64,000 nucleotides of DNA from an uncultured Bacteroidota bacterium. Its GTDB lineage: Bacteria > Bacteroidota > Bacteroidia > Bacteroidales > WCHB1-69. The notes below the pieces were generated by a model, which saw nothing but the letters and a program-made list of their open reading frames with translations, did no database searches and was not told the origin of the DNA. Location of the stretch: contig CADCNH010000008.1 of NCBI GenBank assembly GCA_902802755.1, forward strand, positions 1 to 64,000. The letters are read 5' to 3'. Below, piece by piece: positions 18,343 through 55,324 of the stretch (position 1 is the stretch's first letter; every line of letters starts with the position of its first letter). A program made the position numbers and the translations under genes.

Positions 18343-20469
18343 ATGAAAAAACTCGGAACCATAACCTTACTAGCTTGTTTAGCGCTTATGTTTACCCATT
18401 GCAGTAACAAAAATGCCCCTATCCAGTATCCGGAAGCCGCTATGGGCAGCGACACAGATGTTTATTTCGGTGTAAAAGTGGCCGACCCCTATCGTTGGCT
18501 GGAGAACGATACCGCCCCGGAAGTGGAGGCATGGGTACAGCAGCAGAATGAAATCACCCAGAACTACTTGCAGAAGATTCCTTTCCGCGAGGACCTCAAC
18601 AAGCGGTTGACAGCAATTTCCAACTACGAAAAGATTGGAGCACCCTTCAAAAAACACGGCAAATACTATTTCTACCGCAACGACGGCTTGCAGAACCAAA
18701 GTGTTTTGTATGTCAAGGAGAGCTTGGACGGTGAAGCCGAAGTGTTACTGGACCCCAACACACTGTCAGACGATGGCACCGTGGCCCTCAACGGCATCAG
18801 CTTCTCACACGACGGCAAGTATCTGGCCTATACCATCTCCCGCAGCGGCAGCGACTGGGTTGAAATCTATGTGCTGGACTTAGCTACCCGCCAGCTGACT
18901 AACGACCACATCGAATGGGCCAAGTTCACCAGTGCGGCATGGCACGGCGATGGCTTCTACTACAGCTGCTACGACCGCCCCGAAGCTGGCAAGGAATACT
19001 CCAATATGAACGAAAACCACAAGATTTTCTATCATAAAATGGGTACTGCACAAGAAGAGGATGTGCTGATTTATGAGAACCCGAAATATCCACAGCGCTT
19101 CTATACCGCAAGCACCGACGAGGACGAAACGGTAATGTTTATTTCCGAAGACGGTTTTGGTGCAGGCAATAATCTGATGATGAAAGATTTACGCAGACCC
19201 AACGCTCCCGTAGTCGCCATCACCACCGATGCCGATTTCATCTACTCACCTATCGAAGTCATGGACAACAATATTTACGTTTATACCAACTACAAAGCTC
19301 CGAAATACCGTCTGATGAAGGCCAACATCGACAATCCGAGAATCGAGAACTGGACAGAAGTGATTCCGGAAGGAGAATATGCGATGAGCTCAGCGGAGAT
19401 TATCGATGGTAAATTCGTACTCTGCTACAACCAGGACTGCTCCGAGCACGCCTACGTCTATACTTTGGAGGGCCAAAAAATGCACGAGGTGGAACTGCCT
19501 ACCTTAGGAACAGTTTGGTTCAGCGGTGATAAAAAAGACAAAGAGGTCTTCTACGGATTCTCCTCTTTCACCTTCCCCTCCACCATCTACAAATATGACA
19601 TTGACAACAACAAATCAGAGTTATACATGGCTCCCAAGGTGGACTTCAAGAGCGACGACTACCTGACCGAGCAGATTTTCTTCACCAGCAAAGACGGCAC
19701 CAAGGTTCCCATGTTCATCACCTACAAACGCGGTTTGAACCTGAGGGGCAACAACCCCGTATTGCTCTATGGCTACGGCGGTTTCAACATCAGCCTGAAC
19801 CCCTCTTTCTCCACCATGCGTATTCCGTTCTTGGAGAATGGCGGCATCTATGCCCAAGTCAACCTCCGTGGTGGCAGCGAATACGGCGAGGAATGGCACC
19901 AAGCCGGCACCAAGATGAACAAGCAGAATGTGTTTGACGACTTCATCGCTGCCGCCGAATACCTCATCAGCGAGAACTACACCAATCCGCAGAAAGTGGC
20001 CATCATGGGCGGCTCCAACGGTGGTCTGTTGGTAGGTGCTTGTGTCAACCAGCGTCCCGACCTGTACCGTGTAGCCATCCCGCAAGTGGGTGTGATGGAC
20101 ATGCTGCGCTACCACCTCTTCACCATCGGCTGGAACTGGGCTCCCGACTACGGCACCAGTGCCGATAGCAAAGAGATGTTTGAGTACCTGTACAACTACT
20201 CACCGCTGCACAACATCAAGAACGACGGCACCCCCTACCCTGCCATCCTGGTGACTACTGCCGACCATGATGATCGTGTGGTACCCACCCACTCGTTCAA
20301 ATACACTGCCGCTTTGCAGGCTGCTAACACTGGCAATGCCCCGAAGCTCATCCGCATCGAAACCAAGGCCGGTCACGGTGGCGGCATGCCCCTCAGCAAG
20401 GTAATTGAGGAATATACCGACATCTATGCTTTCATCATGTATAACCTCGGCATGAAACCCAAATTCTAA
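18343..20469 (+). CDS. Prolyl oligopeptidase family serine peptidase (S9A), lipoprotein
   Basis: The product has 708 residues. The N-terminus has a signal peptide with lipobox-like LMFTHCSNKN, so it is probably membrane-anchored in the envelope. The S9A N-terminal motif DPYRWLEND is followed by a seven-bladed propeller (about 70-420) and an alpha/beta hydrolase domain. The catalytic triad is Ser558 in GGSNGGLLVG, an Asp in the DHDDRV motif (641-646), and His678 in AGHGGG. It cleaves short peptides after proline. Co-transcription with the DoxX-like gene upstream is likely. Confidence 0.93.
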   Translation: MKKLGTITLLACLALMFTHCSNKNAPIQYPEAAMGSDTDVYFGVKVADPYRWLENDTAPEVEAWVQQQNEITQNYLQKIPFREDLNKRLTAISNYEKIGAPFKKHGKYYFYRNDGLQNQSVLYVKESLDGEAEVLLDPNTLSDDGTVALNGISFSHDGKYLAYTISRSGSDWVEIYVLDLATRQLTNDHIEWAKFTSAAWHGDGFYYSCYDRPEAGKEYSNMNENHKIFYHKMGTAQEEDVLIYENPKYPQRFYTASTDEDETVMFISEDGFGAGNNLMMKDLRRPNAPVVAITTDADFIYSPIEVMDNNIYVYTNYKAPKYRLMKANIDNPRIENWTEVIPEGEYAMSSAEIIDGKFVLCYNQDCSEHAYVYTLEGQKMHEVELPTLGTVWFSGDKKDKEVFYGFSSFTFPSTIYKYDIDNNKSELYMAPKVDFKSDDYLTEQIFFTSKDGTKVPMFITYKRGLNLRGNNPVLLYGYGGFNISLNPSFSTMRIPFLENGGIYAQVNLRGGSEYGEEWHQAGTKMNKQNVFDDFIAAAEYLISENYTNPQKVAIMGGSNGGLLVGACVNQRPDLYRVAIPQVGVMDMLRYHLFTIGWNWAPDYGTSADSKEMFEYLYNYSPLHNIKNDGTPYPAILVTTADHDDRVVPTHSFKYTAALQAANTGNAPKLIRIETKAGHGGGMPLSKVIEEYTDIYAFIMYNLGMKPKF

Positions 20470-52043: not shown

Positions 52044-53282
52044 ATGGCTCCTTTCAATTTCAGAAACAACAATATCCTGCATCAGATATACAGGGTTTCC
52101 AGAAATAATGTCATGCATTATTTGGTGAGGGCATACCGCCGCACCCACGAGCTGGTTATCTTTCTGGTCATCTTTTTCGGTTTTTTCATCGGATTATCCA
52201 TACCGATGGGCTTGCCGAACATGCTGAACACCTTCATGAACACGGCGTACAAGTTGCTGCTTGACACTGTCTTTTACATCATGGCCATCACGGTGATGAC
52301 GGGAGCCATTAGCAAACTGTTTGTGGAGTTCGGTGTGGTAGTGTTGTTGGAGAAGATGCTGAAACCGCTGATGAAGCCACTATACAACCTCCCTGGAGTA
52401 GCCTCATTGGGTGCGGTAATGACCTTCCTGAGCGACAACCCCGCCATCATCACCTTGTCGAAGGACAAGACCTTCAGTCAATACTTCAAGCAATATCAGA
52501 TTGCCTCCTTGACCAATTTCGGCACTTCTTTTGGTATGGGTTTGGTGGTGGTGGCCTTCATGACAGGTCGCGGCTACGGTAGCGGAGCATTGGTTGGTTT
52601 GGCAGGAGCCTTTATCGGCAGTATTGTCACCACTCGAATGATGCAGTTTTTAACGCTCAGAGCCTATCCCGAGTTGGATTCTCCCATGCCTGGCACGCAT
52701 TTGGACCAGGAATTCGAGCCCGAACTCAAGCCCGCACAAGGCACCTTGGAAGAAGAGAAAAAAGGACCGTTTTTGCGCACCTTGAACGCCATGTTGGATG
52801 GTGGCAAAAGTGGTGTGGAGATTGGTTTGTCCATCATCCCCGGCGTGCTGATTATCTCTACCATTGTGATGATGACCACTTTTGGTGCCCCTGCTGACGG
52901 CGTATATACAGGTTCTGCTTACGAAGGTGTTCCTGTGTTGCCGTGGTTAGCCTCCAAGATTGACTTTATTTTCCAGTGGCTTTTTGGTTTTGACCATCCC
53001 GAGTTGATAGCCTTCCCAATTACCGCTTTAGGAGCTGTAGGCGCTGCCATCGGTCTGATTCCTGCCTTTGATGCTTCCGGTCTGATTACTGCCAATGCCA
53101 TCGCCGTATTCACCGCCATGGGCATGTGCTGGAGCGGCTTCCTGAGCACCCACACTGGCATGTTGGACTCTCTCGGCTATCGCCAGCTGATTTCCAAGGC
53201 CATTGCCTCTCACACCGTCGGCGGCCTCATCGCCGGCATCTCAGCCCACTGGCTGTTTGTGCTCGTGTCGCTGATCAGATAA
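52044..53282 (+). CDS. Nucleoside-recognition (GATE) domain membrane protein, CD0519/CD1768-like
   Basis: The product has 412 residues with about 8-10 membrane segments. FLSDNPAIITLSKDKTFSQY, then SLTNFGTSFGMGLVVVAFM and the related second repeat at SGLITANAIAVFTAMGMCWS are the GATE/nucleoside-recognition half-sites. It resembles the CD0519/CD1768 family. The transported compound is unknown; nucleosides or small organic solutes are possibilities. Position right after a porin-like gene suggests joint transport across both membranes. Confidence 0.75.
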   Translation: MAPFNFRNNNILHQIYRVSRNNVMHYLVRAYRRTHELVIFLVIFFGFFIGLSIPMGLPNMLNTFMNTAYKLLLDTVFYIMAITVMTGAISKLFVEFGVVVLLEKMLKPLMKPLYNLPGVASLGAVMTFLSDNPAIITLSKDKTFSQYFKQYQIASLTNFGTSFGMGLVVVAFMTGRGYGSGALVGLAGAFIGSIVTTRMMQFLTLRAYPELDSPMPGTHLDQEFEPELKPAQGTLEEEKKGPFLRTLNAMLDGGKSGVEIGLSIIPGVLIISTIVMMTTFGAPADGVYTGSAYEGVPVLPWLASKIDFIFQWLFGFDHPELIAFPITALGAVGAAIGLIPAFDASGLITANAIAVFTAMGMCWSGFLSTHTGMLDSLGYRQLISKAIASHTVGGLIAGISAHWLFVLVSLIR

Positions 53283-53636
53283 CAGATAACAGGTTACAGG
53301 GGATAGGTTACAGGTTACAGATATTGTAGGGCTGTCACATTGTGGCAGCCTTATGTCTAATTTAATACGGCTGCCGTAATACGATAGCCCTACATTATTG
53401 TGATAACCCTATATAATTGCGATAATCCTACATTATACAGACGCATGCGATGCGTCCCTACAATTAATCCATCATCCTATAATCAATCTCCCCTCGAACG
53501 AAGTGAGACTCCCCTGACGCGAAGCGTCACTCCCCTTGAGCACGAAGTGCGAAACTCCCCTCGAGTGCGTAGCACGAGACTCCCCTAATTCATTAGCACA
53601 TTAACTAATTAACTAATTAACTAATTTGCTAATTTG
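53283..53636. repeat. Gene-free stretch between tail-to-tail genes, packed with repeats
   Basis: GGTTACAG units at about 53289-53320. A nested inverted repeat at 53325-53394 has outer arms TGTAGGGCTGTC and GATAGCCCTACA and inner arms GGCAGCC and GGCTGCC. A GACGCA/TGCGTC hairpin lies at 53440-53456, the GNA-loop hairpin array at 53488-53586, and TTAGCAAATTAG-type units from 53587 onward. Confidence 0.75.
53488..53586. repeat. Tandem array of four GNA-triloop mini-hairpins on a CTCCCCT linker
   Basis: CTCCCCT recurs at 53488, 53509, 53530, 53555 and 53580 (spacing 21, 21, 25, 25). Each interval folds into a hairpin closed by C-G with a GAA, GAA, GAA or GTA loop. Stems differ in sequence but keep pairing: T-C-x-x-A-C, T-G-A-C-G-C, T-T-x-x-G-C-A-C, T-C-x-x-G-T-G-C. 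In units 1, 3 and 4 the x-x positions form the same tandem G.A/A.G mismatch. Confidence 0.85.
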
Positions 53637-54722
53637 CTAATTAACTAATTTGCTAATTTTCTCCATGATTCGTTCTGGCGAAATATTCGTCAGGCAGCGG
53701 TAGTCCCCATAGCGGCAGGGCTTGTTGCCGTAAATGCTGCATGGGCGGCAGGGAAGGTCCTCCTGTATCACATTGTCTATTGACTGCCCCCAACCCAGGA
53801 AACCCGACAAAGGATGCGTGGCACCCCAGACACTTACCACAGGAACACCTGCCAATGAAGCCAGGTGCATGTTGCCGCTGTCCATCGACAGCACCAGACG
53901 CAAGCAGCTCATCAGTCGCAGTTCCTCGCCCATGTCGGCCAAGCGGCCCACCACAGACTCCACATTGTCATATTTCTGTTCCCATTGTTCCATTAAAGCC
54001 CTCTCTTCCGCACCAGCGCCAAACAAATATACATGCATTTGCTTGGAAAGTTCTGCCACCACCTGCTCCATTTTGTCCAAAGGATAAATCTTTCCTCTGT
54101 GTGCAGCGAAAGGTGCCACGCCTATGGCATTCTCTTTGGCGAAAACAGCTTCTCCTTGCCGTGAATTGCTGCCGGACTGAGTATTGGTTTCAGCTGGAGT
54201 ATTAGTTTCAGCTGATATGTCCATTCCAGGTCGGGATATATTTCCGAACAGCGAAAACGGCTGATGCCAGTCTATCCGCACTGGATAGCCCAACTCCGCC
54301 AGCACCTGCTGATAACCCTCGAATGATGTACGCTGCTGAGTCTTCACCTTCGCCTTGATAAAGTTTTTCCGTTGGCGGCGATTCTTGTCAAAATAAGCTG
54401 TTGGTATTCCATCCAGCTTAAAGAAACCTCTTAAAACAATTGTTCTCAACACATTATGAAAATCCGCAAGAGCTGTCGGCTGCAAGGTTTTCAGCTCTTT
54501 ATACAAACGATAAATTCCTTGAAGACCCTTGTAATTCTTCAGGTTCACCCCGACAAAAGACACATTTTGCGGTAGCATCCGCATTATGGGCCCGACGTAG
54601 GGACGGCTCACCACCGTAATCCGCAATTCAGGGTATTGCCGTGCCAGGGCGTCAATCACGGGCACCGACATCAGGATATCGCCCAAGGCGGAGAAACGGA
54701 AAATGAGCAGATGCGGTTTCAC
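53637..54722 (-). CDS. Family 9 glycosyltransferase (heptosyltransferase-like)
   Basis: The GTG start at 54722 (reading VKPHLLIFRFSALGDILMSV) overlaps the TGA of the upstream DUF4254 gene in a GTGA arrangement and fits the family start; a longer frame reaching to 54887 is just that neighbour read in another frame. The product has 361 residues. RFSALGDILMSVPVIDAL, IGVAPFAAHRGKIYPLDKM, LVLSMDSGNMHLASLAGVPV and VWGATHPLSGFLGWGQ are the GT9 sugar-nucleotide and acceptor motifs. It probably adds heptose or a related sugar to the LPS core. Confidence 0.92.
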   Translation of the reverse strand: MKPHLLIFRFSALGDILMSVPVIDALARQYPELRITVVSRPYVGPIMRMLPQNVSFVGVNLKNYKGLQGIYRLYKELKTLQPTALADFHNVLRTIVLRGFFKLDGIPTAYFDKNRRQRKNFIKAKVKTQQRTSFEGYQQVLAELGYPVRIDWHQPFSLFGNISRPGMDISAETNTPAETNTQSGSNSRQGEAVFAKENAIGVAPFAAHRGKIYPLDKMEQVVAELSKQMHVYLFGAGAEERALMEQWEQKYDNVESVVGRLADMGEELRLMSCLRLVLSMDSGNMHLASLAGVPVVSVWGATHPLSGFLGWGQSIDNVIQEDLPCRPCSIYGNKPCRYGDYRCLTNISPERIMEKISKLVN

Positions 54723-55324
54723 TTTTGGCCGTATAAAATCGGATTGGTACTGGGATCGTTGTACATTTTCATCTGCTTGTACACCCGCATATACTTGCGT
54801 CCTGCCTCGAAATCCGCCAACAGCTGGTCGATGGCGGTACTCAGGTCCACCTGCTGCTGCAACAATACATCCAGTTTCTGCTGACAAAGCTGCCGATGTT
54901 CCTCGCTGGCATCCTGGCGTTCCACCTGCTCGCGCATGTGATATATTTTCAGTGCCAGAATACTCAGACGGTCAACCGCCCAGGCAGGACTTTCGGTATT
55001 GATAGTGGCATTCTCCAATGCTCTCACTTCGTGATATTTCGTGTAAAAATAGCTGTCGATAGTCTCCACCAAATCGGTGCGTTCCTGATTGCTGCGGTCG
55101 ATACGACGCTTCAGTGCCAAGGCCTCCACAGGGTCGATATTCGGGTCACGGATAATATCTTCCAGATGCCACTGCACCGTATCGATCCAGCACTTCAGAT
55201 ACAAATCGGCCTCAATACTGCCTGTGGTATAGGGGTTATGGATCGGAGCATCCACATCATTCGTCTGATGATAATCCTTAATGACCTGTTCAAAGATCGG
55301 GTTCGCCAAAGCTGTAAATGTCAT
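54719..55324 (-). CDS. DUF4254 protein
   Basis: The product has 201 residues, nearly all helical: DYHQTNDVDAPIHNPYTTGS, LYLKCWIDTVQWHLEDIIRD, ALALKRRIDRSNQERTDLVE, then a coiled-coil-like C-terminal half. This is the DUF4254 family, which regularly sits directly beside GT9 genes in Bacteroidota as it does here (4-nt overlap). The function is unknown, but linkage suggests LPS core synthesis. Confidence 0.88.
   Translation of the reverse strand: MTFTALANPIFEQVIKDYHQTNDVDAPIHNPYTTGSIEADLYLKCWIDTVQWHLEDIIRDPNIDPVEALALKRRIDRSNQERTDLVETIDSYFYTKYHEVRALENATINTESPAWAVDRLSILALKIYHMREQVERQDASEEHRQLCQQKLDVLLQQQVDLSTAIDQLLADFEAGRKYMRVYKQMKMYNDPSTNPILYGQK

Follow-up and report, generated by a model that had tools for sequence, protein, structure and literature searches.

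The stretch of DNA analysed here, 64,000 nucleotides long and called the window below, carries between two convergent genes a short tandem array of hairpins set between C-rich linkers. The locus raises the question of what such an array is: whether selection acts on its fold, on which strand and in which nucleic acid that fold would form, and what kind of protein might read it. A first-pass annotation of the window had proposed selection at the level of single-stranded DNA, for example as a recognition site for a Y1-type transposase.

A hairpin array between convergent genes

The features of the locus are listed here in order of position, with the basis for each in brackets; the two gene assignments come from open reading frames and a reading of the sequence, not from profile searches.

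52044..53282, + strand: flanking gene for a predicted multi-pass membrane protein, likely of the nucleoside-recognition/spore-maturation type
53283..53322, + strand: left neighbour module, degenerate CAGGTTA heptamer repeats directly after the upstream stop codon (sequence; polarity counts)
53283-53322, 53382-53436, 53587-53660: stretches of short tandem repeats in the window
53488..53586, + strand: whole array, five CTCCCC boxes and four hairpins (sequence, motif positions, recurrence)
53488..53493, 53509-53514, 53530-53535, 53555-53560, 53580-53585, + strand: CTCCCC boxes 1-5 (motif positions)
53494..53508, + strand: hairpin 1, short class with G.A/A.G step, loop GAA, T CGAACGAAGTGAG A (sequence; class statistics)
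53515..53529, + strand: hairpin 2, perfect class, loop GAA, exact GCGAAGC inside, T GACGCGAAGCGTC A (sequence; class order)
53536..53554, + strand: hairpin 3, long class with G.A/A.G step, outer T-A, loop GAA, T TGAGCACGAAGTGCGAA A (sequence; class statistics)
53561..53579, + strand: hairpin 4, long class with G.A/A.G step, outer C-G, loop GTA, exact GCGTAGC inside (sequence; class statistics)
53587..53660, + strand: right neighbour module, ATTAGCAC / ATTAACTA octamer repeats (sequence; polarity counts)
53637..54887, - strand: flanking convergent gene, likely a family-9 glycosyltransferase

The layout described in the first-pass annotation agrees with the sequence: CTCCCCT occurs five times on the + strand, at 53488, 53509, 53530, 53555 and 53580 (spacings 21, 21, 25 and 25), the four loops are GAA, GAA, GAA and GTA, each closed by C-G, GCGAAGC in unit 2 and GCGTAGC in unit 4 are both exact, and units 1, 3 and 4 have a G.A/A.G step two pairs in from the base. 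The linker is better defined as CTCCCC, and the unit as T-hairpin-A, because the seventh base, T, pairs with the A preceding the next box; in arrays of the family a base other than T often follows the last CTCCCC. The class order of the four hairpins in the window copy is G.A, perfect, G.A, G.A.

Folding energy is unexceptional for the 99 nt of the array (DNA z -1.1 for the + strand and -0.2 for the - strand), and whole-array thermodynamic z-scores, uninformative on either strand, were dropped as a signal. The heptamer by itself is about as common in the window as expected (6 observed, 4.8 expected). Neither measure alone flags the array; its significance comes from genome-wide recurrence.

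A dispersed family essentially confined to one genus

A search of this 2.56 Mb genome for CTCCCCT-N11-28-CTCCCCT gives 63 matches, against 4 for a reversed-pattern control; six of eight sister genomes have 14 to 186 matches each, so that seven of the nine genus members examined carry arrays (of the other two, G005 has no match and G006 a single, non-hairpin one). In 95 further genomes of the same taxonomic family, belonging to other genera, the matches are scattered and mostly non-hairpin, and a pattern search over the order finds the same hairpin core in other contexts but not the array itself. The plasmids, phages and viral contigs searched carry no arrays, and spread by way of them is rejected on that ground. 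An Rfam covariance-model search returns weak matches only, all outside 53488-53586 and none over the array. The search for CTCCCCT-spaced hairpins in Bacteroidales genomes that the first-pass annotation had suggested thus yields a large family: the window array is a single member of a dispersed repeat specific to the genus, and CTCCCC-box hairpin arrays are essentially absent outside one rumen Bacteroidales genus (the named carriers are ruminant-gut Bacteroidales MAGs).

Hairpin anatomy and covariation

The units of the family fall into three classes, long G.A, short G.A and perfect. Among 95 distinct 18-mers (the linker T left out), the outer pair is C-G or T-A and is followed by G.A in 85 and A.G in 81. 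Inside this step lie three freely covarying pairs (pair 4 is C-G in 41, G-C in 28 and T-A in 17), and an innermost C-G closes a loop that reads GNA or ANA and varies freely in the middle (A 34, T 31, C 26, G 4). Of 462 units, 171 contain GCGNAGC exactly, and a unit of 9 nt, TGCGNAGCA, is also found between boxes. The DNA heptamers GCGAAGC and GCGTAGC are unusually stable mini-hairpins with a sheared G.A loop pair, and in DNA both GNA loops and tandem sheared G.A have particularly high stability.

Taking one array per orthologous group, 376 of 420 cells in long units are Watson-Crick, against a mean of 236 in 1000 shuffles (sd 8, maximum 263), and 94 of 108 in short units, against a shuffle figure of 70; because the rows are related copies the test overstates independence, and these comparisons are not to be read as probabilities. 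What had been noticed in one array, stem letters that differ yet keep their complementarity, recurs as covariation across many arrays and within orthologous loci, and over many arrays the tandem G.A/A.G step is retained as a mismatch and the GNA loops are kept. Selection very probably acts on the hairpin fold. Most bacterial palindromic repeats are conserved in sequence; stems that drift while the loop, the closing pair and the G.A step stay, with paired bases changing together at fixed loci, are rare evidence for selection on a folded genomic single strand.

Array architecture

Three is the commonest number of hairpins: 68 of the 148 independent loci have exactly this many, against 22 expected from a geometric size distribution. 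The perfect class is in the middle at 42 of these 68, and the outer hairpins are mostly of the G.A class; most often, then, an array consists of a G.A-hairpin, a perfect hairpin and a G.A-hairpin, in that order.

The boxes are nearly constant (about 18 changed bases among 314 internal boxes), although the chaining rule, which favours intact boxes, overstates this constancy. Such constancy, and a modal box number of four, the minimum for an intramolecular quadruplex, would suit an element driven by its boxes, in which four G4/C4 tracts together form a G-quadruplex or i-motif whose loops contain the hairpins as structured spacers. Spacers, however, do not need GNA loops or G.A steps, and arrays of two to three boxes exist too; we consider a box-driven element very improbable.

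Change at orthologous loci

At the window locus, G007 (96% identical) carries the same array, while between the two corresponding genes G003 has five hairpins, G004 one and G008 two, most of them with a different sequence. At the orthologous site in G001 (G001:C75:75970-77068, L258) a gene fills the intergenic region and no array is left; from its sequence only, we take this gene to be ORF6N-like.

Comparison of orthologous arrays gives 50 identical unit pairs, 27 with substitutions and 20 with swaps or other changes. The commonest single class of change is at the middle base of the loop (8), and four within-locus double changes between species preserve pairing, one of them at a weakly orthologous site:

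L187 v L236: A-T<>G-C
L122 v L156: C-G<>T-A
L200 v L125: T-A<>C-G
L098 v L176: pair-keeping double change, weak orthology

If the last hairpin of the window is orthologous to those of G003, G004 and G008, it would supply a further double change, from T-A to G-C. Within a locus, many of the changes replace a whole unit, and hairpins are gained, lost and exchanged at orthologous sites. Alignments of filled with array-less sites show the array exchanged for other intergenic repeat modules, with no clean target duplication.

This turnover of units, in intergenic regions full of other short tandem repeats, is what might be expected of a functionless neutral repeat, minisatellite-like, made palindromic by template switching (arm copied onto arm) and spread by recombination between boxes. 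Arm correction would, however, erase the G.A/A.G mismatches, which are kept in about 85-90% of distinct long units; the loop is free at its middle base only, array sizes peak at three and class order is fixed. A neutral origin seems to us distinctly unlikely.

Genomic setting, strand and nucleic acid

In a gene-context sample from three genomes, 87% of the DNA is coding, yet none of the 88 located arrays lies within a predicted gene, and an origin as a coding remnant is rejected on that count. Neither of the two outcomes that the first-pass annotation had set against its own reading, a remnant of coding sequence or relatives' arrays without compensatory changes or loop conservation, is seen. 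The median distance from an array to the upstream stop is 52 nt, and convergent gaps are over-represented and divergent gaps under-represented (18 v 7 for array gaps, 55 v 88 for background gaps). In co-directional gaps the CTCCCC strand runs with the genes 31 times and against them 27 times, which is no transcription bias, and orientation relative to GC skew (41:46) shows no replication bias. No consistent gene neighbour, such as the annotation had suggested looking for, accompanies the arrays.

An ATTCAAA repeat stands left of the array in the same orientation 24 times and right of it never, and a TTAGCACATT-type repeat stands right in the same orientation 42 times and right in reverse never. 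Throughout the genus, intergenic DNA is a mosaic of short tandem repeats (CAGGTTA, ATTCAAA, TTAGCACA and others) with a fixed polar order around arrays.

Positions close behind stop codons and a preference for convergent gaps would also fit structured RNA, the transcribed hairpins acting as 3'-UTR stabilisers, as protein-binding sponges or as a three-stem-loop small RNA. Both GNA-type loops and tandem sheared G.A in a CGAG/CGAG context also work well as RNA motifs. At an orientation ratio of 31:27, though, half of the arrays would be read as the wrong strand, the G.A step becoming C.T, and the array itself matches no Rfam family; an RNA role of this kind is unlikely in our estimate.

The folding strand is probably the CTCCCC strand, because the other strand would have T.C/C.T in place of the conserved G.A/A.G. 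Among cells that are not Watson-Crick, read on the CTCCCC strand, G.T outnumbers A.C in both of two classes (22 v 13 and 11 v 3, 33 v 16 pooled), which points weakly the same way. A strand-specific mRNA role is unlikely, because arrays have no orientation bias to transcription or replication. As for the nucleic acid, the lack of transcription polarity, the stability of GNA loops and sheared G.A in DNA, and the single-stranded DNA telomeres of Streptomyces (PMC7205883) make DNA the better inference, and on balance we lean towards DNA rather than RNA. The earlier claim of selection on single-stranded DNA is therefore sustained for selection, by covariation, GNA loops and the retained mismatch, while its choice of DNA over RNA is a matter that we infer.

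Candidate readers of the fold

The E. coli TnpAREP protein binds one strand of the folded REP, requires its conserved stem mismatch and cleaves at CT (PMC8266576). Y1 enzymes of subclass 1.2, with the signature Y---Q--HH, are generally without typical terminal hairpins, and the paper that defines them does not describe their DNA substrates (PMC6006769). Genomes of the genus encode one to six Y1 proteins each, and the Y---Q--HH signature is found in 25 of 28 Y1 loci across nine genomes.

No Y1 locus among these 28 is flanked by CTCCCC hairpins, and on this point the proposed Y1-type recognition site fails to find support; it gains some from the enrichment of C(GNA)G hairpins near Y---Q--HH genes. 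Among triloop hairpins, C(GNA)G makes up 31 of 80 near such genes in the genus and 6 of 58 far from them (p 2e-4), and in other Bacteroidales 26 of 81 near them, 9 of 61 far (p 0.02) and 7 of 61 near other Y1 classes (p 0.005), all for stems of 5 or more, a threshold chosen after a first result with 6 or more, at which GNA hairpins near Y1 genes are too thin outside the genus. (The Y1 loci behind this comparison are L001-L006, L046-L067, L277-L291 and L295-L323.) The enrichment is only a lead, and what it connects with Y1 enzymes is the type of loop and not the array. One Y1 gene near an array, at L052, has its own different hairpins and is rejected as a chance neighbour.

Several observations weigh against a Y1 reader. 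The Y1 clade that all array-bearing genomes share is also present in array-less G006, and the hairpins have no GTAG foot on either strand (CCCC or CCCT precedes on +, GGAG on -). IS608-type enzymes prefer one replication strand, a bias that the arrays do not show. We regard a Y1 enzyme as a possible but doubtful reader of the fold. A reverse-transcriptase origin (retron, group II or DGR products) is rejected because the RVT_1 profile has no match in six of the seven array-bearing genomes.

The fold could instead mark sites at which folded or cruciform DNA is recognised, independently of any transposase, by a chromosome protein (gyrase, a nucleoid protein or an end-protecting factor). Host proteins bind E. 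coli REPs, as PMC2817692 reports, the multi-hairpin Streptomyces telomeres with their GNA loops and compensatory changes (PMC7205883) offer a parallel, and the arrays have no orientation bias. Yet no protein candidate presents itself, and a repeat family in one genus sits poorly with widespread proteins, which leaves such sites improbable.

The reading that we put forward, tentatively and at somewhat less than an even chance, is that the arrays are a genus-specific, dispersed, REP-like, non-autonomous composite repeat, selected for the single-stranded fold of the CTCCCC strand and perhaps copied by a Y1/HUH enzyme. What is conserved would be the fold and not the sequence: usually three C(GNA)G hairpins, the outer ones with G.A/A.G, and single-stranded CTCCCC boxes between them. 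Its functional form would be single-stranded DNA, exposed in replication, repair or transposition. In the least secure of these steps, a Y1/HUH enzyme would bind the fold and copy it in trans, or would once have done so; the Y---Q--HH (subclass 1.2) proteins of these genomes are the best candidates, and the arrays would then behave as non-autonomous mobile hairpins. The full proposition is doubtful, namely that what is inherited is not a sequence but a fold of single-stranded DNA with three hairpins (GNA triloops, tandem sheared G.A, C4 boxes), read and copied by Y---Q--HH HUH enzymes. The arrays point to a type of substrate for HUH subclass 1.2, and their more than 200 natural variants form a library for testing which protein reads the fold.

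Comparison with known systems

REP/BIME elements with their RAYT (TnpAREP) resemble the arrays in being short imperfect intergenic hairpins with a conserved stem mismatch, near 3' ends, in many copies, composite and strand-asymmetric. The arrays share with REPs the high copy number of short intergenic palindromes (63 to 186 units per richer genome, 0 of 88 in genes) and a stem mismatch that specifies the strand (G.A in 85 and A.G in 81 of the 95 distinct long units). They lack the unpaired 5' GTAG foot, no Y1 gene at the 28 loci of nine genomes is a cognate one flanked by the same repeat, and they differ further in their free stem letters, single orientation per array and, usually, three hairpins in fixed class order. 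Because the tests of foot and cognate gene fail, we treat the arrays as a variant and not as members of the REP/RAYT system. Nor do they correspond to IS200/IS605 ends, since they carry no gene and the Y1 genes are not bounded by them.

Parvovirus termini are packed hairpins with GNA triloops and sheared G.A that function as single-stranded DNA. The palindromes of Streptomyces telomeres are likewise packed hairpins, GNA-capped, with sheared G.A pairing and compensatory changes, and function as single-stranded DNA (PMC7205883), but they lie at replicon ends, whereas the arrays are internal, dispersed and split by C4 boxes. Y1 HUH enzymes of subclass 1.2 (PMC6006769) are encoded in the array genomes by genes enriched for flanking C(GNA)G hairpins, but those hairpins belong to other families and have no CTCCCC boxes. 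The short tandem heptamer repeats of cyanobacteria and Beggiatoaceae (PMC4679880) resemble the heptamer and octamer modules that neighbour arrays in this genus; they are direct repeats without a covarying hairpin family, and the array is not a simple repeat.

Related repeats

At L265, L275 and L266, in another Bacteroidales family, the repeat GTCATTC-CGAGC..GNA..GCGAG-GAATCTC holds the same tandem G.A/GNA core within a longer stem; it is also present in genome G203, which has no Y1 gene. Just left of the window array (53322-53463), the imperfect inverted repeats TGTAGGGCT...AGCCCTACA and GACGCATGCGATGCGTC CCTACA look like GTAG-tagged REP-like palindromes. A second array type has the same G.A/GNA hairpin design with another linker, GTCTCCACGA / GTCTTCACGA, and is found at L235 (1115 and 18448-18548), L205 (4538), L214 (11869) and L182 (3653).
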